IMG/VR virus record: IMGVR_UViG_3300044822_000131
Span: 1-54,728 of that record
Origin: a virus
Strand: one strand, 5' to 3'
Length of the DNA: 54,728 nucleotides
Shown here: positions 2,627 to 54,728 of the stretch, piece after piece
Layout: every line of letters starts with the position of its first letter
How positions within the stretch are numbered: the first letter of the stretch is position 1
Program-made: the position numbers and the translations under genes
The notes under the pieces: model-generated
The model's input: the letters and a program-made list of their open reading frames with translations, nothing else
What the model was told of the DNA's origin: nothing
The model's database searches: none

Positions 2627-3230
2627 TGTCCTTGATTTCTTCGGCGTGGGCAAATGCGCCGCACAGACACTCGCCGCTCATATGCAGTAGCGCCGCGACC
2701 TCACTCTCGGGTACGTCGTGCTCCTCGCGGTAGGCGCGCAGGTCGTCCTTCGTCCTGTCTAGGAATGGCGCTACCCAAACCTGCGCGCCTTTGCGCCTCA
2801 CTTCGACAACGTGTCCCATGCGCCGATCGGATTCGGATAGACGTACTCCGGTTATCAGCATGATGCGATCCCGCCGGCTTGTCTTGTGCTCACGCACGAG
2901 AGCCTCGATGCAGCGCTCCTTTAGCCGTGTATACATAAAGAGATGCCCGCCAGGCCCAGGGAACCCGTGTTCTAAGACGATCGCAGCGTAGGAAACCGGC
3001 GGATGGTATTCAAGCAACGGGATGCTGTAGCGAGAGCAAAAATCGTAGACGAACTCGCGTGTCTGCGGAATCCCGATCGTAGTGTTAATGTGGACCGCCG
3101 CGTCGGCGAGGCCGGCATGCCATACTGCGTGGAGTAGCGCCGCCGAATCGTTGCCGCCCGAAAACAGGACGAACCGATGCGAGCAGTCATGCTCGGTGGA
3201 TGCGCGGGCAATTATCTCTTGGAAGCTCAT
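2478..3230 (-). CDS. PAPS-reductase-family / N-type ATP pyrophosphatase protein
   Basis: 250 residues. The adenylate-binding PP-loop SGGNDS is near residue 24, typical of PAPS reductase and related enzymes that adenylate a substrate. Cysteines in GECLCGAFA and the terminal CASCK could carry sulfur or bind metal. Such genes are common in phages and are variously linked to sulfur assimilation or base/DNA modification; the sequence does not decide which. Its ATG overlaps the stop of the upstream helicase (ATGA at 3227-3230). Its 3' end (from 2500) is the segment repeated at the right end of the window. It is followed by a helicase gene here, but directly by a polymerase gene in the right-hand copy. 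Confidence 0.8.
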   Translation of the reverse strand: MSFQEIIARASTEHDCSHRFVLFSGGNDSAALLHAVWHAGLADAAVHINTTIGIPQTREFVYDFCSRYSIPLLEYHPPVSYAAIVLEHGFPGPGGHLFMYTRLKERCIEALVREHKTSRRDRIMLITGVRLSESDRRMGHVVEVRRKGAQVWVAPFLDRTKDDLRAYREEHDVPESEVAALLHMSGECLCGAFAHAEEIKDIEAFYPDVARRIHALEEEVEAKGKHAVWGTRPPGRRSSGKRGELCASCK

Positions 3231-4654
3231 GCCGCGGCCCGCTTGCGGCGGATGCGGCCGAAGACGAGGCTCTCGCGGTCGGCGTTGCGGAGGGACTCGT
3301 GCAGGTCGCGCTTGTCGGCCAGCAGGTTCGCCACGAACGCATCGACCGTTCCGTCGACGTCGTAGTACGTGATCGTGCGCGGGACCGGGGCGCTGCCGTC
3401 GTGCTTGTAGACGCGATCCCGGCTCTGCTCGTCGTCGGTGAACGAGAACGTCCGCGAGAGGTAGGCGAGGTGCCGGCCCTCGCGCAGCGACACGCCCTCG
3501 GACCCCGACTGCATTTGGACGACGATTGCCGCCGCACCGGGGAAGGCGTTGAACGCTTCGATGTCCTCGGCCCCGGTGCCACGGCCCAAGCGGAACACCG
3601 GCATGTCAGGGAACGCGCGGCCGATCGTGGTTGCGGCCACCTCGCCTTCGTGGACGAAGCGGTGGAACACGACGATCTTCTCGTCCGACGCGACGATCTC
3701 GTCCATGTCGGCGATCAGCGCGTCGATCTTGGCCTGGTGCATCGGCAGCGCGCCCTTGGTCGTGCCGTCGGCGTCGAGGTCGGGCAGGAAGCCCGAGGTG
3801 AGCTGCTGGAGGCGCATCAGCCGCACGGCGGCGTTGGTGGCGGTGATCGTGGCCCAATCGTCGGATTGCAGGACCCACTCCTTGGCGAGCCGGTGGTAGA
3901 GGTTCCACGCTCGCGCGGGCATCTCGACCGTGCGGTGAATCTCTTGGTAGCGGTCCTTGCCGAACCAGTCCTCGCGCCGGTAGATGGCTGCCACCTTCAG
4001 GATCATCGCTTGGAGCTCGTCGACGTTGATGTGCGCCAGCACGCGCGAGGTATACATCGCGTCGCGGACGAGGAAGCGCTGGGCGAACCGCTCGTAGCTG
4101 GAGGGCCAGTTGTCGGGGTCGAGCGGCGCGAGCTGCGACCACAGCGAGCCGTAGTGGCGGGGGGCCGGCGTGCCGGTGAGGCTGCGGACGTAGGGTGTGG
4201 TGCGCGCGAGCTTGCGGTAGGCCCGGCCCCGATCGGTCGAGATCCCGCAGTAGTTGTGGCTCTCGTCGGCTACGAAAACGTCGAGCTTGGGGACGCCTGC
4301 GAAGGCGGCGTTCGCGAGCTTGTCGCGGTTGATGATGGCGACGCCCTCCCAGGCGGGGTCCGACACGAAGCGCTCGGCGGCGAGCCCACTGAGGTCGTAG
4401 AGCTCGTGCGTCGGGATGCCTGCGTCACCGAGCACCGACTTCCAGGTCGGGCCGACTTTGAGCGGCGCGGTCACGAGCGCCCGCCGCCACGCGCCGGCCC
4501 GCCGGCGCAGGGTGAGCGCTATCGCGTTCGTCTTGCCCATCCGGGGCGCGGCGTGAATCGCGCGCTTCGGGAGGTCGCCGTTGGTTTGGTCCTCGAGCCG
4601 CTCCCATTCGTAGGGGCCCTCGGGCTCGGGCAGTTTCCAGGGCCCGAGCTTCAT
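3227..4654 (-). CDS. SNF2-like superfamily 2 helicase
   Basis: 475 residues. Motif I is AAPRMGKTNA near residue 38, motif II VADESHN near 130, and the SAT-like motif III is LTGTPAP. The C-terminal RecA lobe carries VQMQSGSEGVSL and a motif VI-like QSRDRVYKHDG. A DNA-dependent ATPase for replication or recombination is the likely role. The ATG at 4654 overlaps the HTH gene stop (ATGA), and the gene overlaps the downstream PAPS-reductase gene by four bases, so the three are probably cotranslated. A second homologue exists at 914-2464. Confidence 0.85.
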   Translation of the reverse strand: MKLGPWKLPEPEGPYEWERLEDQTNGDLPKRAIHAAPRMGKTNAIALTLRRRAGAWRRALVTAPLKVGPTWKSVLGDAGIPTHELYDLSGLAAERFVSDPAWEGVAIINRDKLANAAFAGVPKLDVFVADESHNYCGISTDRGRAYRKLARTTPYVRSLTGTPAPRHYGSLWSQLAPLDPDNWPSSYERFAQRFLVRDAMYTSRVLAHINVDELQAMILKVAAIYRREDWFGKDRYQEIHRTVEMPARAWNLYHRLAKEWVLQSDDWATITATNAAVRLMRLQQLTSGFLPDLDADGTTKGALPMHQAKIDALIADMDEIVASDEKIVVFHRFVHEGEVAATTIGRAFPDMPVFRLGRGTGAEDIEAFNAFPGAAAIVVQMQSGSEGVSLREGRHLAYLSRTFSFTDDEQSRDRVYKHDGSAPVPRTITYYDVDGTVDAFVANLLADKRDLHESLRNADRESLVFGRIRRKRAAA

Positions 4655-4991: not shown

Positions 4992-6716
4992 CTATTTTTC
5001 TGCCCGTAGATACCGCATGACCGTGTTGCGCGTTACCCCGAGCGCCGCCTCGATCTCCTTGATCGAAGCGCCGTCCGCTCGCATCTCGCGCGCCTGCTCG
5101 GCCCGGCTTGCGGCGGCTTCGCCCCGGTCGACCGGCTCCTCAATGTCGCCCGCCTGCGCCGAGGAGAGCGACACCCGTTCGGGGTCGCTGGGCAGCACGA
5201 GCTCCAAGGGCACGAGCGAGCCGTCTTCGAGCCGCTCCATTTGGACCGAGCCGTCGCGGGGGTCGACGAGCACCCGCGGCTCGCCCGTGAAGTCCAGGGC
5301 GTAGCCGGGCTCCGGCCAGTTTGTCTTCTCCACGGTGAGCCGCAACGGCCCGCCCGGCTTGCGGGTGGCGCGCAAGAACACCCGCGCCACGTTTCGCATC
5401 TCGGTCGAGCCGAGGTACGCCCCGCCCTTGTTCTCGTGGAAGGTGCCCACGATCGTGCAGCCGGTGCGGGTCGCGATGTCGGCCAGCGCCCCAAGCGCCG
5501 TTCGTGCCCGCTCGGCCGCGTTTTGGCCCTTCTCGTGCTCGAAGTGGGTGTAGATGCTGTCCAAGTACAGGAAACCGCAGCCGGACTCCACCAGGGCAGC
5601 GGAAAGGGCCGTTGCGTCGCGGGGAAGTTGGAGGCTCGAGCCGACCGGGATGTGATACAGCCGCGAGAGGTCCGCGCCGAGCACGGCTGCGGTCAGCGCG
5701 AAGATTTGGAACGGCTCCTCGACCCCGACATGGCCGAACAGGCCGCCCGCCCGCGTCACTCGCGCGGCCATCCACGAGAGGAGGCGCGACTTGCCGATGC
5801 CCCCCTCACCGTAGAGCAGCACCATCTCCCCCTTGGGGAAGAACCGCTCTAGCCACCACTCCTTCGCCTCGACGACGAGGTCCGAGTCTGCTGCCACCTT
5901 CCACCCCTCCGGCCGCAGGCGCACCGCCGGCGCGTCCGGCGACCCCAGCTCCCACTTGGCTGCCGACTTCGCGATGCGGGCCGCGTCGCGGGCCGAGTAC
6001 AGCCCGCGCGCCGGGTCCTGCTCCAGCACCCCCGAGCCGATGATGCCGGTGAGCATGGCGGCGATCGCGCCCTCGGAGAAGCGCCGGGGCCCCCGTAGGA
6101 ACCCCGCGATCTTGGCAAGCTCGTTGTCGTTCTCGCCGATCGGGATCTTGTCGCGCTCCTCGAGCGCGAGCGCCATCTCAATGTCGCCGTGGTCGGTCGC
6201 CCGCTCCAGCAGCCAGTCCGGTGCGGGTGCCGGCGCGCGGTCGTCGATCACATGGTAGCGGAACCCGCCCTCGCGCAGCGAGCCGGGCCCCACGATGTAC
6301 CCCTTGGCCTTGATGTCCCCGATGACGGTCTGCCGGCCGTTCTCGTCGGCCACGACGTATTTGCAGTTGCGCCCCTCCCAGCCCGGCGGCACCGTGAACA
6401 GCGCATGCACGCCGCGCAGCGTCTTCTGCCGCCAGGTCGGCCCGAGCCGCCGCAGCTCCGCCTCGGCTAGTGGCCCCCCAACGTCGAAGTCGGCCAGGAG
6501 GAATTGTCCGTCGAGCGCGATCCCGATGTTGGTATCTTCGCCCCAATCCAAGAACATGTCCTGAGAGACCGCGGAGCGGTGGCCGTGCGCGGCCTTGGGC
6601 TCCTTGCCGGTCGAGATGCGCCCGTTGGGCATAACGTCGCCGGGCTGATAGAGATGCAGCAGCCGCGCGCCGGGCGGGAGTCCCGCACGCACGCTGCGAT
6701 TAGCCTCGGCGCTCAT
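4992..6716 (-). CDS. Bifunctional primase-polymerase / RepA-like helicase
   Basis: 574 residues from ATG 6716, which overlaps the upstream stop (ATGA). The N-terminal third is a prim-pol (archaeo-eukaryotic primase-like) domain with LLADFDVGG as the DxD metal site. The central domain is a RecA-fold ATPase of the AAA_25/RepA class: Walker A LLYGEGGIGKSRLL, Walker B CGFLYLDSIYTH. The C-terminus is an HTH (GASIKEIEAALGVTRNTVMR) that may bind the origin. One protein could thus melt, unwind and prime at the phage origin. An in-frame upstream extension to 6905 overlaps the preceding gene and is unlikely to be used. Confidence 0.85.
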   Translation of the reverse strand: MSAEANRSVRAGLPPGARLLHLYQPGDVMPNGRISTGKEPKAAHGHRSAVSQDMFLDWGEDTNIGIALDGQFLLADFDVGGPLAEAELRRLGPTWRQKTLRGVHALFTVPPGWEGRNCKYVVADENGRQTVIGDIKAKGYIVGPGSLREGGFRYHVIDDRAPAPAPDWLLERATDHGDIEMALALEERDKIPIGENDNELAKIAGFLRGPRRFSEGAIAAMLTGIIGSGVLEQDPARGLYSARDAARIAKSAAKWELGSPDAPAVRLRPEGWKVAADSDLVVEAKEWWLERFFPKGEMVLLYGEGGIGKSRLLSWMAARVTRAGGLFGHVGVEEPFQIFALTAAVLGADLSRLYHIPVGSSLQLPRDATALSAALVESGCGFLYLDSIYTHFEHEKGQNAAERARTALGALADIATRTGCTIVGTFHENKGGAYLGSTEMRNVARVFLRATRKPGGPLRLTVEKTNWPEPGYALDFTGEPRVLVDPRDGSVQMERLEDGSLVPLELVLPSDPERVSLSSAQAGDIEEPVDRGEAAASRAEQAREMRADGASIKEIEAALGVTRNTVMRYLRAEK

Positions 6717-6934
6717 ACGTCGCGCCTTAAGGACGCGATAAACGCCGTTGTCTCCGCTAAGGCTGCCATGTACTCTGCCGAAGGTTGTTTGTCGCGCTCC
6801 TGGCCTGGGCGGTATGCGGCCCAAATCCGATCCCGGAGCGACTTCGGAAGCATGAACCAATGCCTCTTGCACATATGCATCCTCGGCGGGACCGGCACCT
6901 CGCACCCTGGGGCATGGCAGTGGTGTTCGCTCAT
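6713..6934 (-). CDS. Small Cys/His (zinc-finger-like) protein
   Basis: 73 residues. HCHAPGCEVPVPPRMHMCKRHW resembles the Cys/His box of small phage and prophage proteins with a downstream SLRDRIWAAYRPGQ segment. It probably binds one zinc ion; function unknown. It is joined to both neighbours by ATGA overlaps and is the gene just upstream of the primase. Confidence 0.75.
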   Translation of the reverse strand: MSEHHCHAPGCEVPVPPRMHMCKRHWFMLPKSLRDRIWAAYRPGQERDKQPSAEYMAALAETTAFIASLRRDV

Positions 6935-8521: not shown

Positions 8522-9541
8522 TTAGACTTCCGCTAGGAACTTCGCCGCGAGCAACGTGAGCTCGTCACGCTCAAATGAACGCTCGAACATGCGCGCGACC
8601 TTAGTGTTGTCGTCGCACCCGTTGCGCTGCGTCAGCAGGTGTTGCTCGAGGTCCGCGACGGCGTTGTACGCGCCCCATGCGGTCCAACGAACCGCGTCGA
8701 GGTCCGGTGCTTGCGCCGCCTCCGCCAGCAGCGTGCGCTTCTTGTTCACGTTCGTTATCATCCGACTGGTCAACTCACGGCCCGGCAAATCCTCCGGAAC
8801 CGGGAACAGCACCTCGACCAGTTTGCGGTACGTTTCCTTTCCGATCGGCTTCGCCAGCAGTTCCTTGGCGAAGGCCTCGAATTGCTCGCGCTCTTTGGGG
8901 ATTAGGGCCAGCATGCGCCGCCCGGCCTCGATACGCTCGGCGTAGTTTTTCGTGTGCCGAATGGAGAGCGTCTGCCCCTTCTCACCCATCGCACCGGCGA
9001 AGGTGTTGCAGCACACCACGCGCGTGTTCACGACCTTGCACCGCAGCGACGAACTCCCATCGTGAGCCGTGGTCGCGAGAAGAAACGTCCGAATCTCATC
9101 GTCCGCGATGTAGAGCGACTTATCCAGTCGCACCAGTCCCCAACCGACACGCCCGTCGAACAGCAGCCCAGCCGTTTCGTAGTGCGCGTAGCCGGGCCGC
9201 GACGTCAATTCGTCGCACACGCTAAACATCGTCGGAAAGTCGATAACCTCGTAACCTTCGCCGACCGCGACGCCCGGCAACGGTTGGAGCGTGTCCGACC
9301 GGATAATCGCGTACCGTTCGGGCACCTTGATCGGCGGCTCACCCGCATCTTTCGCCGCCTTCGACGCGTAGGTCAGCATCGGCGACTTCCCCAATCGGAA
9401 ATCCATTCCGCACACCTTCATCATCTCGGCTGCCGTCGCGTACCCTTTCAGCTCCGTGGCCTGCCCGCGGTCCTCACCACGCATGCCTATCCACCAGGGT
9501 TGTTCACCGACATACGCCATGCGTTTCACGTTTGCGCTCAT
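8522..9541 (-). CDS. DUF932 phage/plasmid-like protein
   Basis: 339 residues from ATG 9541, behind GAGAGGAAT. It matches the DUF932 (TIGR03299-type) pattern: an early GEQPWW...G segment, VVNTRVVCCNTFAGAMG in the middle, then RHTKNYAERIEAGRR. The family is widespread in phages, plasmids and integrative elements; its function is not established, though it often lies near replication genes as here. Own ribosome site and a terminator on each side suggest a separately controlled, perhaps strongly expressed, gene. Confidence 0.8.
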   Translation of the reverse strand: MSANVKRMAYVGEQPWWIGMRGEDRGQATELKGYATAAEMMKVCGMDFRLGKSPMLTYASKAAKDAGEPPIKVPERYAIIRSDTLQPLPGVAVGEGYEVIDFPTMFSVCDELTSRPGYAHYETAGLLFDGRVGWGLVRLDKSLYIADDEIRTFLLATTAHDGSSSLRCKVVNTRVVCCNTFAGAMGEKGQTLSIRHTKNYAERIEAGRRMLALIPKEREQFEAFAKELLAKPIGKETYRKLVEVLFPVPEDLPGRELTSRMITNVNKKRTLLAEAAQAPDLDAVRWTAWGAYNAVADLEQHLLTQRNGCDDNTKVARMFERSFERDELTLLAAKFLAEV

Positions 9542-9627
9542 ACTAGATTCCTCTCGCTCATACACCGTCCGTCTAATCGGCCGGTGGCCCCTGTCTCATC
9601 AGTCTCCGATCGGGGCGGCAACGGAGA

Positions 9628-42898: not shown

Positions 42899-44103
42899 GC
42901 TTCCTCATCCCAGGAATCGGGGCCGGTCTATCCCTCATTAGCGGCCTCATCGGCTCGAACGCGGCCAACCACGAAGATCAGCAGATCCAGCAGCTCCTCA
43001 ATCAGATCTCGAAGCAGCAGCAGGGCGTCCAGGGCAACCTCGAATCCTCGATCGGCGGCATACAGGGCACGGCTGCCGGGTACCTCGGCCTCCTCCCCGG
43101 CCTGCTCAGTTCGTTGCAAAGCGAGAACAAAGGCGTCGGCGCGCAAGCGCCGGGCGCAGCGCTGCAGTTCTTGCAGAACGCCCTCAGCCCAAGCGCGCTC
43201 GCTGGCACCACCGGCATCAACGCGGGCGGCTTGGCGGGCCTCGCCACCAATTACCTCTCCAACCCCGGTGCGACGAACCTCTCCCAAGTCACGCCGGGGC
43301 TCGAATCGTTTTACAAGCAGGAGGAGGCGACCGGGCTCAACCCCCAGGTCCAGCAGAACGCGCAGAACCAGCTCCTGCAGCAGTTCGACTCGTCCCTCGA
43401 CACGCTCGAAGGGCAGGCCGCGCCGGGGCAAAACCTAGCCGGCGCGCAGCAGGCGCTCCAAAACAACCTCCTCACCGCCAGCACGAACCTGGGCGGGCAG
43501 CTCGCGGGCGAATCACAGCAGTACAAGAACATCGGCGCGCAGGGTGTCGCATCGACCGCCGGCGCGCTCGATCAGCAGACGATGTCCATGCTGATGAACG
43601 CCTTTGGCCTGGGCAACCAGTACAACCAAACGGTGCTCGGCAACCAACAGTCGGGGGCCGGGTTCGGTCAGAACATCCTCGATCAGCTCGGCCAAACCGC
43701 CAACGTGGGCAACTCGCTCAACGAGTACGCTTCATCGTCGCTCGGCTCGCTCAACTCGTCGCTCATGAGCCAAGCCGACTACCTCACGGGACTCGGCCAA
43801 AACGCTGCGTCTGCGGCTGGGGCCAACAACCCGTTCTCGGCGCTCGCCAACTCGCTCTCGTTCTTGCCCACAGGCGGAGGGGCGGGCAGCGGCACGGCCA
43901 CGGTCGGAACCGATACGGACGCCGACCTTCCGGCACCCGAGAGCTACGCGCCTGCGGGTTTCTCGTTCAACCCGTCGCTCGCCCAAGTTCCCAGCGCGTC
44001 GCCGGGCAACTACTCCTACACCGGCCCGTACCCGAGCCTCCTAAACAACACGATGAGCGGCATGCCGACCGGACTCTACGGCCTGGGCCAGTACGCGGCG
44101 TGA
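42895..44103 (+). CDS. Internal virion / ejection protein, Gln/Ala/Gly-rich
   Basis: 402 residues from ATG 42895. Short hydrophobic start (FLIPGIGAGLSLISGLIGSN), then long helical, Gln/Asn-rich sequence (QQIQQLLNQISKQQQGVQGN), the composition of podovirus ejection proteins such as P22 gp7. Likely injected with DNA. Confidence 0.65.
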   Translation: MSFLIPGIGAGLSLISGLIGSNAANHEDQQIQQLLNQISKQQQGVQGNLESSIGGIQGTAAGYLGLLPGLLSSLQSENKGVGAQAPGAALQFLQNALSPSALAGTTGINAGGLAGLATNYLSNPGATNLSQVTPGLESFYKQEEATGLNPQVQQNAQNQLLQQFDSSLDTLEGQAAPGQNLAGAQQALQNNLLTASTNLGGQLAGESQQYKNIGAQGVASTAGALDQQTMSMLMNAFGLGNQYNQTVLGNQQSGAGFGQNILDQLGQTANVGNSLNEYASSSLGSLNSSLMSQADYLTGLGQNAASAAGANNPFSALANSLSFLPTGGGAGSGTATVGTDTDADLPAPESYAPAGFSFNPSLAQVPSASPGNYSYTGPYPSLLNNTMSGMPTGLYGLGQYAA

Positions 44104-45449
44104 CGCGGGTCGCGTATTGGACCGAGGAAGGCGTCACGCTCTCATGGGCGCGGCGCTTACTCGACGAGGGCACCGACGTCCTGGTCTACACCCGCAAGCC
44201 GCACGCGAAGGGCAACGGCGAGGGCATTGTCCCGCGGGCTACGTCGGTTGGGCAGTGGGAGGCGTGGGGCGCGCAGGATCCCAACACGATTTGGTTCTGC
44301 GACTGCACGGACTCGGGCGACTACTTCGACGGGCTCCGTAAGCAGGGCCGGCTCGTGGTCGGCGGCGGCAGCTTCATGGACCGGCTTGAGAACGACCGCG
44401 ACTACGGCCTGCGCTTCTCGGCGCAGAACGGCATCGACGTACCTCCGACCAAGCAATTCGGCTCGGTGCGCGCCGCGGTCGACCACATGCGCTCTACGAC
44501 CGAACAGGCCGTGGGTGACGGCGGCTGGGCGTGGAAGCCGAACCGGAACCTCGGCACGGCCTACTCGCTGTGCGGCGAGCCGGATGAAGTGACCCGAGAC
44601 TGCGAGCGCATGGTCATCCCCAAGTTCGGCGACCGCGTCGCGGCGGTGGTGCAAGAGCGCGTGCCGGGCGTGGCGCTCTCAACGGCGCGGTGGTGGAACG
44701 GCAAGGCGTGGACCGGCCCCTACGAAGGAACGATCGAAGACAAGGCGTTCATGGACGGCGGCATCGGCCCTTCGACGGGCTGCTCGCTCAACACGCTGTG
44801 GTTCTACGAGGACGAATCGCCGAAGATCGCGCAGGCGCTCCGGTTCGAGGAGATGGCGCTCGAGTTTCGAGCGAAGCAGGCCCCGCCCGGCATCTACGAC
44901 ATCAACGCGATCGTCAACGAGCGTGGTGCGTTCGCGCTCGAGTTCACCCCCCGGCTCGGCATCGACGCGGAGCTCGTCAGCCACCGCGCCTTCACCTCGC
45001 TCACCGAGGTCCTCGAACGGCTCGCCACCGGCGGCGACATCGACGACCTGGTGCGGATCGGCACCGCCTACCACGCGGTGCGGGTGTCGGTCATGCCGTA
45101 CCCGTGCGAGGACAAGAAGCTCGCGGACCTCAACATCCCGGTCGGCCTGCCGGTCGGTGGCCTCACCTCGCTGTGGGCCGGCGACTTCGCGTTTGCCGGG
45201 CTGCGCTTCAAAGACAGCCAGTTTGAGATAGCCGACCCCTACGGGTTCGTCGGCACCACCCTCGCGCTCGGGCGCGACGTCCACGCCGCCTACCGCGCTC
45301 TGAAGCGCTCCTGCGAAGCAATCGACGTCCCAGGACTCCAATACCGCACGGACGGGGCCGACGTCGTCGCGGAAAAAGTTGAGGAAATGGCGAAGGCGGG
45401 GTGGCCGACGACGCCGATCCTGCGCCGTGGCCGGAAGGAGGCATCCTGA
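44100..45449 (+). CDS. ATP-grasp ligase, PurD-like
   Basis: 449 residues from GTG 44100 (GTGA). Runs like phosphoribosylamine-glycine ligase: RLVVGGGSFMDRLENDRDYG, a preATP-grasp/lid part VAAVVQERVPGVALSTARWW, and FALEFTPRLGIDAELVSHRA, where Glu and Arg are the metal/ATP residues of EFNPRFGDPE. It should join a carboxylate to an amine with ATP. Placement between ejection genes is unusual for a metabolic gene; it may modify a virion or host component, or base. Substrate cannot be told. Confidence 0.7.
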   Translation: MTRVAYWTEEGVTLSWARRLLDEGTDVLVYTRKPHAKGNGEGIVPRATSVGQWEAWGAQDPNTIWFCDCTDSGDYFDGLRKQGRLVVGGGSFMDRLENDRDYGLRFSAQNGIDVPPTKQFGSVRAAVDHMRSTTEQAVGDGGWAWKPNRNLGTAYSLCGEPDEVTRDCERMVIPKFGDRVAAVVQERVPGVALSTARWWNGKAWTGPYEGTIEDKAFMDGGIGPSTGCSLNTLWFYEDESPKIAQALRFEEMALEFRAKQAPPGIYDINAIVNERGAFALEFTPRLGIDAELVSHRAFTSLTEVLERLATGGDIDDLVRIGTAYHAVRVSVMPYPCEDKKLADLNIPVGLPVGGLTSLWAGDFAFAGLRFKDSQFEIADPYGFVGTTLALGRDVHAAYRALKRSCEAIDVPGLQYRTDGADVVAEKVEEMAKAGWPTTPILRRGRKEAS

Positions 45450-49140: not shown

Positions 49141-49346
49141 AGGCTCTCCCTCCGCTCTATCTCTCGGTTGACGTACCAGGCGGCTTTTTTGAGGTCCTCA
49201 ATGCCGCCCTTGGAGTCGGCCCGCCACAGGTACTTGACGGCGTTGCCGACGCAGAAGTTTAGGTGCTCGGTGATTTGGATGCACTCGACGCCCGAGGGGT
49301 GCTCGGTGTAGTGCTTCGGGTGGTTGATGGGATCGTTGTCGATGAC
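49035..49346 (-). CDS. DUF3310 (SaV-like) protein without a standard start
   Basis: About 103 residues. INHPKHYTEHPSGVECIQIT, then GNAVKYLWRADSKGGIEDL and AAWYVNREIER are the hallmarks of DUF3310, a small phage family often annotated as nucleotide-kinase-like. No ATG, GTG or TTG lies near the domain start; GAAAGGG precedes GTC 49346 and ATC 49343, and the next in-frame GTG is at 49400, inside the nuclease gene. Either a rare start is used or the domain is reached by a -1 shift from the VRR nuclease frame. The last 35 codons overlap the small gene at 48970-49140. Confidence 0.6.
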   Translation of the reverse strand, partial: VIDNDPINHPKHYTEHPSGVECIQITEHLNFCVGNAVKYLWRADSKGGIEDLKKAAWYVNREIERRESLCQLTPKSSTPASEQPASVRRRDGTAQARARSSTR

Positions 49347-49666
49347 AGAGCCCTTTCTACGTCGTCGACGTTGTAGGCGACGACGATGATCGCACCGCAC
49401 AATCGCATCTCGGCGATTGTGCGGGCCTGAATAGGGGTGACGAACTCGCCCGGCATCTTGGCCTCGACGCCGAGCAGCGTACCGCAGGGCTCGAGTATGG
49501 CGAGGATGTCGGGGAGGCCGGCGCGCTGATAGGGTCCCGCACCTGCGCGCCAGCAGAAGATGCCGCGGGCGCGCAGGTAGCGGACTATCCGAGCTTTGAG
49601 GGCCGATTCGTTAGAGGAGCGCGGCCTTTTCCTCGTCCGAGAGGTCCTCGTCGGGGGTGTCGTCAT
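49259..49666 (-). CDS. VRR-NUC domain nuclease
   Basis: 135 residues; the domain ends near residue 107 and the rest (STTIPSTTRSTTPSTP) is a low-complexity read-out over DUF3310. Conserved set: SALKARIVRYLRARGIFCWR, GLPDILAILEPCGTLLGVEA with D and ExK catalytic residues (AKMPGEFVTPIQ). Holliday-junction or flap-type DNA cutting is likely. ATG 49666 has AAGGCGG upstream and overlaps the SSB-like gene by 56 bases. Confidence 0.8.
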   Translation of the reverse strand: MTTPPTRTSRTRKRPRSSNESALKARIVRYLRARGIFCWRAGAGPYQRAGLPDILAILEPCGTLLGVEAKMPGEFVTPIQARTIAEMRLCGAIIVVAYNVDDVERALSSTTIPSTTRSTTPSTPRASSASKSPST

Positions 49667-50228
49667 TCGTCGCCGCCTTCGCAGGTTTCGCGGCTGCCGC
49701 CGGCTTCGCCGCCGCGCCGATCATGCGGTACTTGGTACGGATTTTCTTGTTGCCTTCCTCATCGAAGGCGTCGACGTACTGCCCCTCGGCGTTCTTTTCT
49801 TGCACGACCTCGCCGATGGTTTTGAACTTGATGCGGGGGGTGGTCGCGCGCTTGATTTTGGGCCCGACCATGCGCGCGACGGCGTTGATGTCCTTCTCGG
49901 TCGGGTTGCGCTCCCAATGGTAGTCCTTGGAGATGGGCTGTCCGATCGCGTTCATGTCGGCGATCAGCTCCATGACGCCCTGCGCGTAGAGCTTGCCGTT
50001 TTTTCCGGTGACGACTTTGAGGAAGTAGACCTTGGTGAACGGCGTCCCTTCGTACTCGCCTTCGAGCACCTCGAACCCGATCGACAGGTACGGCGTCTTG
50101 TTCGCGTTGTTGGAGGTCTTGCACTCGATGCTCTTGGCGACGCCCCAAAACTCTTTGCCGGGCGGGATGATGTCGCCGAAGGACGAGATTTGGTCTACGG
50201 TTACGGCTGATGTATCGTCTAAACTCAC
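49611..50228 (-). CDS. SSB-like protein (DUF669 type)
   Basis: 205 residues from GTG 50228 (GTGA). The OB-type core (FWGVAKSIECKTSNNANKTP, LSIGFEVLEGEYEGTPFTKV) is followed by an Ala/Lys/Pro-rich linker and an acidic tail DDTPDEDLSDEEKAALL, as in single-strand-binding proteins that recruit partners by the tail. It is coupled to the RecA-like gene. Confidence 0.7.
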   Translation of the reverse strand: MSLDDTSAVTVDQISSFGDIIPPGKEFWGVAKSIECKTSNNANKTPYLSIGFEVLEGEYEGTPFTKVYFLKVVTGKNGKLYAQGVMELIADMNAIGQPISKDYHWERNPTEKDINAVARMVGPKIKRATTPRIKFKTIGEVVQEKNAEGQYVDAFDEEGNKKIRTKYRMIGAAAKPAAAAKPAKAATNDDTPDEDLSDEEKAALL

Positions 50229-51016
50229 TTTGCTATTGCTTTCTTCGTAGTATTGTTTGTGGTGATAAGTTGGTCACTGGCTGTCGCCCCGAGCGACGTC
50301 TTACCGGCACCGGGGTGCCCGTAGATCGTGAGCACGGAGCTCTGTTTGCCGAGCACCTTCCAGAGCTTCGGCAGGGTCGGGTCCGGCAGCGCCTTCGGAA
50401 TCTTTTCCGAGAGCTCCCGCGAAACGTGGAACTTGGCAGTGGCCGATTCGGTGCGGCGCAGGTAGAGCACGCGGGTCTCGCGCGCGAAGATCGTGTTGCC
50501 TTTCTCATCGACCACGGGGTCGGTGAGCGACACCAAGCGGAAGACGTCCGAGGACGATGCGATCAGCGCCTCGACGAAGGCGGGGTTCCCTTGCGGTCCC
50601 GCCATCTTGAGGCCGGCCATCGCGTCGCGGACCTCGTCCTCGTGGGTGAGCACGATGACATGCGCGCCGCGCGCGCGGAAGTTGTTGATGCCGCGCATGA
50701 CGAGCGACGTCGCCATGTTGTAGACCGCCAAGTATTCTTTGTCGCCGAAGAACTTGTTGATCTTGCTGGGGTCCCACAGCGCGTCCTCGTTGCGGTTGCC
50801 GAGCATGCGGTCGATGCGGGTGGTGGTGAGCAACGCCGAGGCCGTGTCGAGCATGACGTTGTCGCCGGGCTCGAGCGTTCGCATGAGGTCCTGGCGGTGC
50901 CGATCGAAGTCGGCGAAGGTGGCGCACGGCAGGTTGATGATCCTGCCGTCGTCGATGTAGTCCTGGATAGAGTCGGTGCCGTTCATGTCGGCGTCGAGGC
51001 GATAGAACTTACTCAC
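50225..51016 (-). CDS. RecA-like (Sak4/AAA_24-type) ATPase with C-terminal P-loop
   Basis: 263 residues from GTG 51016 (GTGA). The parts of a RecA/AAA_24 domain occur out of order. The N-terminus begins at strand 2 (KFYRLDADMNG), Walker B NVMLD is at about 53-57, HVIVLTHED follows, and only at the end comes strand 1 and Walker A, TIYGHPGAGKTSLGATAS (P-loop 233-240, Lys239). Normal relatives have Walker A near the N-terminus. The frame is open throughout, so this is a circular permutation, not a frameshift. Sits between an SSB-like and a RecB-like gene, so a recombinase or annealing ATPase is likely. Confidence 0.75.
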   Translation of the reverse strand: MSKFYRLDADMNGTDSIQDYIDDGRIINLPCATFADFDRHRQDLMRTLEPGDNVMLDTASALLTTTRIDRMLGNRNEDALWDPSKINKFFGDKEYLAVYNMATSLVMRGINNFRARGAHVIVLTHEDEVRDAMAGLKMAGPQGNPAFVEALIASSSDVFRLVSLTDPVVDEKGNTIFARETRVLYLRRTESATAKFHVSRELSEKIPKALPDPTLPKLWKVLGKQSSVLTIYGHPGAGKTSLGATASDQLITTNNTTKKAIAK

Positions 51017-52020
51017 AGTTGAACCATCTTTCTGTCTTTCCAGAACGCCTCGACGGCGGCACGGCCGGGCACGCCGTAGACGGCTTGAACCGCGTCGATT
51101 ATTTTGAACCGGCGCTCCTCGATGAGCCAGTCGACGCGCGGATCGTCGAGCATCGTGCGGGGGTCGACCCGATCGGCCGGGTTGTAGGGGTCGGTGAGCC
51201 GGTCGAGCTCATCGTCCGAGAGCGTGCCGAACCAGTCGGCTTTGCAGATCGGTTTGAAGAAGCACCCGCCGCAGACGCCGTTGCCGTACTCGCGGTAGTT
51301 GGGCACGCGGTAGGTGCGCCGATGGCGGAGCGTTTCCTGAATGTCGAGCGCCACGTTGTAGAGCTCGCGGCGCGTGGTCTCACGCTCGAACTCCGACATC
51401 TCGAGCTCTTGCGGTTGGGGGTAGAGGTCCTCCTCATCCCAGGGCACCCAGGTGGCGACGGACTCGCCGCGGACCTTCTTGGTGAGGAACCGCCCGAGCT
51501 CTTGGCGAGCGTAGACCCAGCGGAACTTGGCCGGCATCTTGAAGTTGTCTTCGGCGATCGTGAGGTAGACGCGCGCTTGGAAGTCCATGTCGACGTCGGG
51601 CGTCGGCGCTTTCAGGAACGTCTTGTAGTCCTGGACGACGGCCTTTTTGTAGTCGGGGTCGTAGTCGTCTTGGTCGTCGTAGTAGACCAGGTCAAAGCTC
51701 CCGCGAACGTGGAAGCCCGGCGCGATCTCGGTGAAGTAGCCGCGCTCGATGGAGAGGATGCGGTTGGGTTCGGGGAGCGGGTGCGCGGCGAGGTAGGCCG
51801 CGGCCACCTCGTAGGCGGGCTCGCCGTCTGGTTGCGGAAGCTCGCCGTACTCGGCCGCGTGCGCCATGTAGGCGTGAAACTGAGAGCCGAAGTTGACGAT
51901 GCCGGGGACGTCGTCGCGTTTGGGTTGGTAGTGAAGCATCGTGTCGAACTCGAACATCTTTTTGCAGCGCATGAAGTTCTGCACCGCGGTCATCGACAGG
52001 ACGAGAGGCATCTCGCTCAT
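51013..52020 (-). CDS. RecB/Cas4-like PD-(D/E)XK nuclease
   Basis: 335 residues from ATG 52020 (ATGA). An early Cys (FMRCKKMFEF) and a late CGGCFFKPIC cluster give four Cys for a 4Fe-4S centre as in Cas4/AddB. The nuclease core has RGSFDLVYYDD and VVQDYKTF, which provide the D and D-x-K residues. Expected to trim DNA ends for recombination. A longer in-frame start at 52125 overlaps the previous gene and is rejected. Confidence 0.8.
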   Translation of the reverse strand: MSEMPLVLSMTAVQNFMRCKKMFEFDTMLHYQPKRDDVPGIVNFGSQFHAYMAHAAEYGELPQPDGEPAYEVAAAYLAAHPLPEPNRILSIERGYFTEIAPGFHVRGSFDLVYYDDQDDYDPDYKKAVVQDYKTFLKAPTPDVDMDFQARVYLTIAEDNFKMPAKFRWVYARQELGRFLTKKVRGESVATWVPWDEEDLYPQPQELEMSEFERETTRRELYNVALDIQETLRHRRTYRVPNYREYGNGVCGGCFFKPICKADWFGTLSDDELDRLTDPYNPADRVDPRTMLDDPRVDWLIEERRFKIIDAVQAVYGVPGRAAVEAFWKDRKMVQL

Positions 52021-52295
52021 TCGCCCCATCCCTCGGCGTAGATCAGCTCGCCGTCTTTGTTGAAGTGCAGGATGACGGTTGAGGCGTAGGAGCCAGGCTG
52101 TCCGTAGACGAGCTCGGCAGCGCATCCTTTAATGGAGGTCGCGAAGCGGCGGTCCCAAGGCTGCGACGACCGCTCCCCGGTCGCTTGACGATCCTCAAAT
52201 GTTATGAACTCGAGCTGACGGGAGCTATCTTTCTGCTCGCAGCGTTGTAAGGCGTGTTTGAATTGTTCGTATTCGGAGTTGATTGAGAATTGCAC
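52017..52295 (-). CDS. Hypothetical protein
   Basis: 92 residues from GTG 52295, behind AAAGGA about 6 bases away. Sequence (QFSINSEYEQFKHALQRCEQ, STVILHFNKDGELIYAEGWG) is a small alpha/beta protein. It overlaps the polymerase 3' end by 94 bases. Family not recognised. Confidence 0.65.
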   Translation of the reverse strand: MQFSINSEYEQFKHALQRCEQKDSSRQLEFITFEDRQATGERSSQPWDRRFATSIKGCAAELVYGQPGSYASTVILHFNKDGELIYAEGWGE

Positions 52296-54583
52296 AATAT
52301 TCCTTTCGCTTCTTGGTATGTTATCTCGACGTCGAGCGGCACGGTTGGGATGACGTTGAAGTGCTCCCGCAGTACTCGGAGCGGCTCGTCGATCATGCAC
52401 CGCCGAATCGTAGGCTCGGCCGCACGGGCCTCGTCCATCGAATCGAACTCGAACTTGATGTCATCGTGGACGAAGTCCACCATCGGCAGGTTTTCCCGGT
52501 TGCACGCACCGAGCGCGATCTCCGCGATGTCTGCACAAAAACCTTGCACCTGCATGTTACACGCTTCGCGCAGCGCTTCCCTCTTTTGATTCGCGTTTAG
52601 CAGGGCAAAATCGCCGAAGTTGCGTCGCCGTCCGGTGACGCTCTCGACGTAGCCGTGCTCGATGAGTTGACGACGCGTGCGAACGAACCAACGCTTCCAA
52701 TCCGGCATCGCACGGTGCCACGATCGGTGAACGTGTTCTCCCTCGGCGTCGGTGAGAAAGATTCCCATCTCGCGCGCGGCGTAGGACACCACCGTTGCGC
52801 CGACGCCGAGGAACTCTTGCGAGAAGTTGCCCGACTTCGCAACCTGCCGCTGCTGCTTCGTGACGTCGGCTTCGGTGATCCCCTCGTAGAGATGCGGTGC
52901 GAACCAGGTGTGCGGGTCCCAATTGGGATCGCGCGCGAAGTTTGCGATGACGGTGCGCTCGTTTGCCACGAAGGCTCCCATGCGAAACTCGATGGCCCGG
53001 TAGTCGGCGTGGACGAGCACCTTGCCGGGGGCCGGCGCTTTGATTTCCTTGAGCTCGCGGTCGAGGTTCTGCGTGCTCGGGTCGGTCGCCGAGGTGCGGC
53101 CGGTGAGCGTGCGCCACACGGTGTAGTGCGGGTGCGCCCGGCCGTCGCCCTCGTTCGTGATACGTTCGTAGGGCAGGATGTAGGTCGACATGCGCTTCTG
53201 TACCTCGCGGTACGCGAGCATCGCGCGCGCGAAGGGATGGTTGATGTAGACGAGCGCCTCCTTGTCGACGCAGTCCTTGCCCGTCTTGGTGAGCCCGAGG
53301 TCGAACCCGCAGTGCCGCAGCACCGCCGCAACGTGGTCGTTGCTGTTCGGATTGAACGCGATCGTCTTCACCTTCGTCTTGAGCTGCTTGTCGAAGACGC
53401 GCGAGTCGAACCCGGCCCGGTCGAGCTGCCAATAGACCTCGTTGAGCCGAAAGTCGAGCAGCTCCTCAGTCTTGGCTTTGTGCTTGGCGACGGCCACGGG
53501 GTCGATGTAGATGCCGCGCGCAGAGATAGCGTCGAGGGCGAGCCGCGCCGGCCGCATCATGTGGTCGACGATCTTGATGCGGTCGCCTAGCAGTTCGCGC
53601 GCCTTGTGGTAGAGCTTGATTGTCATCTCGGCATCGCGCGCGTTGTAGGCCGCGAGCTCGGGCGAGCCGAGCTTCGCGCCGTCGCGCTCCTCCTTCCAGC
53701 CCCGCACGCCGAGGTATTTGGTACAGAGCGGCTCGAGCCCAAGCGGCTGCGTTTCGTCCAAGAGGTAGCACAGCGCGGCGGTATCGTAGTCGGAACGCAG
53801 GCCCGTCATACGGTCGTCAAAGTCCCAGCCGAAGTGCGACACGATCGTGAGCGGCGGCATCGCTTGCAGCATCTCCTTCGCGAACCGCGACGACACGAAG
53901 GTGACGGTCCCGTTGGAGATGGCGGCTTGCGTCATACGGTCGGTGATAGCGCCGGTCTCGTCGTAGGTCTCGATGTCGTAGGCGACAACATCGCCCTCAA
54001 ACGGCTTTCCAGTCCAGGGCAGCCAGTTCGCCTTGACGGGCGGGATGCTGCGGTCGCGGATCTTGCGGAGGTCGCCGGTCACGACACCACGCGCGCTCGG
54101 GCCCTTAGAATACAGCACCCAAGCCGGGTGGTAGGTGGCCCACACGCCACAGTCGTGGTTGAAGGCGGCTTTGAGCTTCCACTCCTTGCCGCGTGCGTTC
54201 CCGATCGACACCGGGCCGATCAGCGTCTTGACCGCCACCTCGCCGAGCGCGATGATGACCTGCGGGCGCACGCGCCGAATCTCGGTCGCGAGGTGCGTCG
54301 CGCAGGCCGCGGCCTCGGCCGGCAACGGCGCGCGGTCCTTGGGCGTCGCGCACTTGACGGCGTTGGTGATGTAGACCTCATCCGGGTCGAAGCCTGCATC
54401 GCGGAGCATGACGTCGAGGAGCTTCCCCGACTTGCCGATGAACGGCAGCCCCTCGAGGTCCTCGGTGCGGCCGGGGTTCTGCCCGACGAGCATGACGGTG
54501 GCGCTCTGCGGCCCCTTGCCGCCGATGCCGACCGAGAGCGCGCTTCGGTGGAGCGGGCAGGCGGTGCAGTCCTGGAAGCTCAC
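52202..54583 (-). CDS. Uracil-DNA glycosylase / family A DNA polymerase fusion
   Basis: 793 residues from GTG 54583 (GTGA with the PAPS-reductase stop; an upstream ATG 54649 would overlap that gene). Domain 1: family 4 UDG, Cys 6, 9, 78 and 94 for 4Fe-4S, GQNPG 34-38, YHPAW about 151-155. Domain 2: proofreading exonuclease, exo I D203/E205 (YDIET), then SHFGWDFDD and YNARDAEM. Domain 3: palm with motif A HADYRAIEFRMG, motif B RQVAKSGNFSQEFLGVG, motif C VDFVHDD. The replicative enzyme. After EITYQEAKGIL a 30-residue Ser/Asn-rich tail overlaps the next gene. Confidence 0.92.
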   Translation of the reverse strand: MSFQDCTACPLHRSALSVGIGGKGPQSATVMLVGQNPGRTEDLEGLPFIGKSGKLLDVMLRDAGFDPDEVYITNAVKCATPKDRAPLPAEAAACATHLATEIRRVRPQVIIALGEVAVKTLIGPVSIGNARGKEWKLKAAFNHDCGVWATYHPAWVLYSKGPSARGVVTGDLRKIRDRSIPPVKANWLPWTGKPFEGDVVAYDIETYDETGAITDRMTQAAISNGTVTFVSSRFAKEMLQAMPPLTIVSHFGWDFDDRMTGLRSDYDTAALCYLLDETQPLGLEPLCTKYLGVRGWKEERDGAKLGSPELAAYNARDAEMTIKLYHKARELLGDRIKIVDHMMRPARLALDAISARGIYIDPVAVAKHKAKTEELLDFRLNEVYWQLDRAGFDSRVFDKQLKTKVKTIAFNPNSNDHVAAVLRHCGFDLGLTKTGKDCVDKEALVYINHPFARAMLAYREVQKRMSTYILPYERITNEGDGRAHPHYTVWRTLTGRTSATDPSTQNLDRELKEIKAPAPGKVLVHADYRAIEFRMGAFVANERTVIANFARDPNWDPHTWFAPHLYEGITEADVTKQQRQVAKSGNFSQEFLGVGATVVSYAAREMGIFLTDAEGEHVHRSWHRAMPDWKRWFVRTRRQLIEHGYVESVTGRRRNFGDFALLNANQKREALREACNMQVQGFCADIAEIALGACNRENLPMVDFVHDDIKFEFDSMDEARAAEPTIRRCMIDEPLRVLREHFNVIPTVPLDVEITYQEAKGILCNSQSTPNTNNSNTPYNAASRKIAPVSSSS

Positions 54584-54728
54584 TTGCAACTCGCGCAGAG
54601 CTCGCCGCGCTTGCCGCTCGATCGGCGTCCCGGTGGCCGGGTTCCCCAAACAGCGTGCTTTCCTTTGGCCTCCACCTCTTCTTCGAGCGCGTGGATCCGG
54701 CGCGCTACGTCAGGGTAGAACGCCTCGA
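54571..54728. repeat. Terminal copy of the 158-bp repeat
   Basis: Matches 2469-2626; 54602-54728 (127 bases) are identical, the preceding base differs (C against T), and a second mismatch is at 54579. The contig stops exactly at the end of a 127-base match. Confidence 0.95.
54580..54728 (-). CDS. PAPS-reductase-family protein, C-terminal fragment
   Basis: The last 49 codons of the gene seen complete at 2478-3230, ending GELCASCK, then TGA at 54580-54582. Truncated by the window edge. Directly followed by the polymerase GTG, whereas the left copy is followed by a helicase. Confidence 0.9.
   Translation of the reverse strand, partial: EAFYPDVARRIHALEEEVEAKGKHAVWGTRPPGRRSSGKRGELCASCK

Follow-up and report, generated by a model that had tools for sequence, protein, structure and literature searches.

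Our analysis of a 54,728-nt stretch of viral DNA (here referred to as the window) indicates that the product of one of its genes is very likely a naturally circularly permuted Sak4-type ATPase with a RecA/Rad51 core, for which we propose an annealing function and an origin. As shown by sequence comparison, the predicted chain corresponds to a linear Sak4 core that was opened at a new point, between the P-loop helix and strand beta2, and has lost its N-terminal extension. The features of the gene and of its neighbors are listed in Table 1.

Table 1. Features of the permuted ATPase gene and of the surrounding cassette
Feature	Position	Strand	Basis or remark
Putative circularly permuted Sak4-like RecA-core ATPase, 263 aa	50225..51016	(-)	Open frame, PHROG_124 and AAA_24 matches, relatives, rotation scan
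Strand beta2 and catalytic-acid/GTDS region, residues 4-15 FYRLDADMNGTD	50972..51007	(-)	Alignment in rotated order
Walker B-type strand VMLDT, residues 54-58	50843..50857	(-)	D57 and T58 invariant
K195-x-H197, counterpart of TKxR	50426..50434	(-)	Alignment; K invariant, H or R at +2 in 7/7
Fusion joint, residues 211-232 PDPTLPKLWKVLGKQSSVLTIY	50321..50386	(-)	Sak4 C-terminal helix to beta1
Walker A GHPGAGKT, residues 233-240	50297..50320	(-)	Direct reading; P-loop in 8/8 members
Remainder of P-loop helix and low-confidence C-terminal tail	50228..50287	(-)	pLDDT <50 at residues 252-263
UDG-domain/PolA DNA polymerase, at the head of the cassette	52202..54649	(-)	Pfam UDG 1.2e-32, DNA_pol_A 1.2e-47
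PD-(D/E)XK exonuclease, Cas4/AddB-like	51013..52125	(-)	PDDEXK_1 1.7e-14
SSB-like protein with acidic C-terminus (DEDLSDEEKAALL)	49611..50228	(-)	PHROG_7778 SSB 8e-4

Motif order, chain ends and predicted fold

Direct reading of the ATPase gene revealed a GTG start, a TGA stop and no internal stop codon, in agreement with an earlier note on this DNA, made from the sequence alone, that had described the frame as intact. The same note had placed Walker B ahead of Walker A, and the positions of the two motifs bear this out. The segment at residues 4-15 corresponds to ILFIDIGERGTDS of linear Sak4, which normally follows the P-loop helix. At the other end, the tail of the window protein terminates in TTKKAIAK and is Lys rich in most relatives, with the exception of the L009 protein.

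The ATPase gene shares a GTGA with the neighboring gene at each end, and the earlier note had taken these overlaps to fix both termini. The overlaps are indeed present; however, the window frame remains free of stops for 64 codons upstream of the ATPase start, so that the overlap alone is insufficient to fix the N-terminus. It is fixed by the relatives instead: four of them (L002, L008, L009 and L010) carry an in-frame stop 0 to 3 codons 5′ of the ATPase start, which makes a longer N-terminus impossible in those loci. Furthermore, a survey of the three forward frames, reaching 1.5 kb to each side of the gene, found no second [GA]x4GK[ST] motif at any of the eight loci. A wrong start with a P-loop located upstream was ruled out by this survey together with the upstream stops.

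The monomer prediction that the note had called for yielded confident AF2 models both of the window protein (pLDDT 83.9, pTM 0.83) and of the L010 protein, which is 28% identical to it (pLDDT 79.6, pTM 0.79). Both models have the same order of elements, with the C-terminal P-loop strand at pLDDT ~87-95 and the adjoining helix also at high confidence, and they argue indirectly that the P-loop strand inserts into the same RecA sheet. The best matches in BFVD were phage AAA/RecA-like recombinase proteins (E values down to 8e-10, TM of ~0.6 in a sequential alignment). A Foldseek search against the PDB gave weak matches to KaiC (0.015), a RAD51-paralogue complex (0.03) and CobU (7e-4); weak matches are to be expected when a permuted chain is aligned sequentially, and they do not constitute positive proof.

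Comparison of the rotated chain with linear Sak4

The Sak4 family corresponds to PHROG_124, Pfam AAA_24 (PF13479) and NCBIfam TIGR01618 (phage_P_loop), and its linear members include the Lebethron protein XPB67146.1, HK620 Sak4 and phage 52A Sak4 (PDB 8rc5). The window protein matched PHROG_124 at 3.3e-17 (relatives, 2e-14 to 5e-21) and AAA_24 at 2.5e-6, the latter match being above the family cutoff in all seven proteins. In native order, the PHROG_124 and AAA_24 matches consisted of out-of-order pieces in two stretches. When the profile search was performed with rotated sequences, as the note had suggested, each protein aligned to AAA_24 in one stretch starting from profile position 2-6, and the score rose by 2 to 8 bits in 7/7 cases (27.9 to 31.7, 33.4 to 37.5, 31.7 to 34.4, 49.0 to 54.9, 30.6 to 32.7, 43.1 to 48.9 and 53.0 to 61.2). 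The matched families have the P-loop first; none of them normally carries it at the C-terminus, an arrangement that the note had set against its own reading.

For the hhalign scan, the alignment of the permuted proteins was rotated at all positions, and each version was compared with 12 phage Sak4 proteins of linear order. The native order, in local mode, scored 107.3 and covered only columns 55-261 of the linear alignment, that is, the part after the P-loop, whereas rotation at residues 224-227 scored 139.4 and covered columns 28-260, the whole core. The optimum formed a sharp plateau at residues 221-230. A coarse scan, run in another hhalign mode, gave 98.0 for the native order and 133.4 at residue 221, with a minimum of 60.8 close to the opposite point. 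Such a profile is the expected signature of circular permutation. Collectively, the gain in AAA_24 score and the hhalign peak support the claim that the protein is a permuted Sak4/AAA_24 RecA-like ATPase, and the position of the plateau supports a cut that separates the P-loop helix from the next strand. It should be noted that identity to linear Sak4 after rotation is only ~16-26%. Judged by alignment coverage, the window protein represents the RecA core only, without a RecA C-terminal or a Rad51 N-terminal domain.

In the restored-order alignment, linear Sak4 reads P-loop, KPILFIDIGERGTDS, VVIDAAH, LAHD, YxTKxR, PEFIVDPTYDKLVAVIKG and then a stop or a basic tail, while the permuted proteins read YRLDADMNGTDS, VMLDTAS, LTHED, xxxKxH, IPKALPDPTLPKLWKVLG, followed by KQSSVLTIYGHPGAGKT, a helix and the end of the chain. 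The alignment thus shows a direct joint between the conserved C-terminal helix of Sak4 (DPTxxKLxxxL; DPTYDKLVAVIKG in the linear forms) and the beta1/P-loop strand. The spacing of the joint is identical across all members, and the N-terminal extension of the linear forms (~25-45 residues) is missing. The Sak4 family order, with the P-loop N-terminal and ahead of Walker B, was found in none of the eight contigs; given this and the descent from Sak4, the protein is best classed as a permuted Sak4 derivative and not as an ordinary member.

The report of the structure of Sak4(52A) with ATPgammaS (PDB 8rc5) places three residues of the neighboring protomer, Lys229, Arg231 and His232, at the nucleotide (PMC11846896). 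In our alignment, the counterpart of Lys229 is the invariant Lys195 and that of Arg231 is His197, a position occupied by His or Arg in all members. The contact of ATP in trans by the neighboring protomer is therefore probably kept in the permuted form.

Relatives and inheritance of the permuted order

The note had proposed a search for homologues with the same order, and full-length relatives with this order were found in seven other IMG/VR contigs, making eight genomes with the window. Direct searches with the ATPase sequence gave no hits; three of the contigs were first reached through the neighboring DNA polymerase and contained collinear, full-length ATPase homologues of 41-67% identity; L008, L009, L010 and L012 were added by profile-guided and single-query scans. 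Overall, the relatives share 28-67% identity with the window protein or 91% with one such relative. The P-loop lies 681-702 bases past the start codon in all eight contigs, and the residues conserved in the alignment of seven proteins include D10, G13, D57, T58, H125, K195, P213, L218, L222 and Y232 as well as P235, G236, G238 and K239 of Walker A; all of these except P213, L218, L222 and Y232 are named as invariant. Comparison of the 91% identical pair revealed ~104 synonymous and 31 nonsynonymous changes (dN/dS of ~0.035), a pattern that shows purifying selection on the permuted form within one phage lineage. The recurrence of the same order in the relatives, the invariance of Lys239 and Asp57 and the dN/dS ratio rule out both chance and assembly error; collectively, these comparisons indicate that the ATPase gene is functional and that its motif order is inherited.

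In a phylogenetic tree, the rotated proteins formed a single clade (100/100), and the polymerases of the host phages likewise formed one clade when two phages with linear Sak4 were used for comparison. Both results are consistent with one permutation event. No permuted homologue was found by tblastn among 50,697 phage records (queries P0002, P0003, P0005, P0007 and the rotated L010 protein), and no homologue was found in plasmids or, with two peptide-pattern scans, in GTDB contigs. A junction-specific DNA pattern run against all IMG/VR contigs, which misses L009, returned known members only. Either the permuted group is rare or the junction pattern is too strict. Intermediates with a tandem duplication of sak4 were not seen in a search that was not exhaustive.

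Cassette, proposed function and comparison with known systems

The minus-strand operon contains, in order, the UDG-PolA polymerase, the PD-(D/E)XK exonuclease, the permuted Sak4 and the SSB-like protein. The same order of polymerase, exonuclease, Sak4 and next gene, with a linear Sak4, occurs in Pseudomonas phages Lebethron and PMBT14, as well as in Caudoviricetes ctfzr933, Brevundimonas phage Strzyga and Desulfofustis phage MD02. The exonuclease probably starts at ~52020, and its family invariants are C54, C285, C288, C294, H84, D145, D166-x-K168, Q183 and Y187; the four invariant Cys residues together with the His, the Asp and the DxK are those expected of Fe-S nucleases of the Cas4/AddB type. 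The SSB-like gene overlaps the ATPase stop by 4 bp. Its product matches the SSB profile weakly in the window (8e-4, PHROG_7778) and the syntenic L012 protein does so clearly (PHROG_378, 3.8e-8), and the SSB-like proteins of most relatives have acidic C-terminal ends.

Several further observations were made in the window. The polymerase is a family A enzyme with an N-terminal domain of the uracil-DNA-glycosylase superfamily, and tblastn alignments suggest that this UDG-PolA fusion is widespread in 40-50 kb phages. A small nuclease-like open reading frame 3′ of the SSB-like gene (49259-49666, minus strand) has no Pfam match and carries the motif GLPDILAILEPCGTLLGVEAKMPG, which is VRR-NUC-like by eye; similar frames follow the cassette in L004, L008, L009, L010 and L012. 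The last 127 bases of the contig (54602-54728) are an exact repeat of 2500-2626. In the relatives, a helicase homologous to 3227-4654 directly precedes the polymerase, and the contig end therefore probably joins near position 2626; region 1-2499, with a second SNF2-type helicase, may represent an assembly branch, a strain variant or a duplication. The two tandem SNF2-like helicase paralogues (914-2464 and 3227-4654, minus strand) both match PHROG_62, and L002 and L004 have one such helicase at the same place. The protein encoded at 4992-6905 (minus strand), with homologues in L002 and L004, combines a Prim-Pol domain, a RecA-like AAA_25 helicase domain and a C-terminal match to a resolvase-type HTH. 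The 449-aa protein encoded at 44100-45449 (plus strand), in the convergent structural-gene block, has no Pfam family, is ATP-grasp-like by eye and is well conserved (58% in L003, 43% in L004). A DUF932 protein (E value of 9e-41) is encoded at 8522-9565 (minus strand).

HK620 Sak4 binds single-stranded DNA (ssDNA) and anneals it in an ATP-dependent manner. It is stimulated by the SSB encoded beside it, through the acidic tail of that protein, and the two together showed no strand exchange in vitro (PMC5928155). In staphylococcal phages, Sak4 and its SSB are needed for phage replication (PMC5499656). A Walker A mutation in PA73 Sak4 is quoted in the latter report as leaving recombineering intact, so that ATP dependence may vary among Sak4 proteins. 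Given the same cassette and the kept active-site residues, we propose the Sak4 annealing job for the permuted protein, whose most likely function would be that of an ATP-dependent, SSB-loaded single-strand annealing protein of the Sak4 type. The note had considered an altered annealing or strand-exchange enzyme; annealing is the more plausible of the two, since HK620 Sak4 lacks strand exchange.

We suggest that the gene likely arose by tandem duplication of sak4 and in-frame fusion of the copies, with copy 1 losing its front part and copy 2 its rear part. The protein would bind ATP at a restored RecA-type site, with Lys195-x-His197 probably provided in trans by the neighboring subunit. The adjacent Cas4-like exonuclease would resect DNA to ssDNA, which would be coated by SSB; the permuted Sak4, recruited through the acidic tail of the adjacent SSB, would then coat the ssDNA and anneal complementary single strands in replication and concatemer formation. 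The chain ends would lie beside the nucleotide site, where most members would also place the disordered Lys-rich tail. If linear Sak4 uses its N-terminal extension for contacts between subunits, these would have been replaced or lost in the permuted chain, which lacks this segment. It is possible, if unlikely, that the protein is the first permuted member of the RecA/Rad51 superfamily with a changed assembly, in which ATP-gated oligomers arise in a different way, for instance with the C-terminal P-loop element swapped or with the tail as a gate of the nucleotide site; such an annealase would behave differently from linear Sak4.

A protein that arose without true permutation, when a Sak4 lost its N-terminal P-loop and gained a C-terminal P-loop hairpin from another ATPase, appears improbable. 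The P-loop is too generic to prove Sak4 descent, and several other AAA/STAND profiles weakly match the C-terminal segment; however, the Sak4 profile alignment, once rotated, runs unbroken through beta1 and the P-loop, the joint comes at fixed spacing right after the C-terminal helix of Sak4 itself, and a single permutation event is the simpler route to what would be an identical topology. We give slightly less credence to a domain swap, in which the C-terminal P-loop strand and helix are donated to the next subunit and ATP sites exist only in chains or rings. The P-loop segment does lie at the terminus, on a short linker (GKQSS), and the unpermuted Sak4(52A) is reported to form filaments with ATP between subunits (PMC11846896), but the single-chain AF2 prediction places the segment with high confidence (pTM of ~0.8), and a short linker from the C-terminal helix fits packing within the chain.

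A shade less probable again is a catalytically dead or purely regulatory derivative, such as a mediator of another recombinase. Rad51 paralogues often are mediators and an Asp (D10) occupies the position of the catalytic Glu of RecA, yet K239, D57, D10, H125 and the trans Lys195 do not vary among proteins that are 28-67% identical, and no other recombinase was recognized among the window proteins scanned, a subset of the genes. The chance that a canonical Sak4 was misread through a wrong start, a frameshift or an assembly chimera, with the C-terminal P-loop incidental, is practically negligible. The open 64 codons upstream and the AT-rich 3′ end of the gene could be taken to favor it (GC of 0.41-0.46 at 50180-50299, coinciding exactly with the C-terminal tail of the ATPase and the first part of the SSB-like gene, versus 0.65 genome-wide); nevertheless, the order is identical in the seven other contigs despite their divergence, four loci have the upstream stop, and other P-loop motifs are absent within 1.5 kb. 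The relatives thus refute an assembly or frameshift artifact. As for a defense system, PADLOC gave P-loop noise only, and that reading was rejected.

The note knew of no established permuted Sak4/AAA_24 recombinase, and we likewise found no description of a permuted RecA-type ATPase among 5.39 million open-access papers searched in full text. The permuted protein shares with Sak4 the restriction to a RecA core, Walker A and B, the GTDS region, the TKxR-like trans motif, the DPTxxKL C-terminal helix and a gene flanked by those for a PD-(D/E)XK exonuclease and an SSB-like protein; in contrast to Sak4, its chain begins at beta2, ends just past the P-loop helix and has no N-terminal extension. Since unpermuted syntenic counterparts exist in cultured phages and a relative has been solved (8rc5), the group offers a clean natural experiment on which parts of its chain order and termini a recombinase needs to fold, to couple ATP and to assemble filaments. 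The group further shows that annotation relying on motif order can split such genes.

Permuted P-loop GTPases are known from the YRG (YlqF/YqeH/YjeQ) and cpRAS groups (PMC2430557). Like the permuted Sak4, these are P-loop NTPases whose P-loop was shifted C-terminally by circular permutation, and in cpRAS (G3-G4-G5-G1-G2) the cut likewise falls soon after the P-loop region. Unlike it, they are TRAFAC GTPases with a different function, and the homology is limited to the P-loop; no family with GTPase G4/G5 motifs and TRAFAC homology appeared in the Pfam, PHROGs and NCBIfam scans. RadB, the Rad51 paralogues and RecA share with the permuted Sak4 the RecA-fold core and the binding of ATP between subunits, but they retain the canonical order and possess extra N-terminal domains or polymerization segments.
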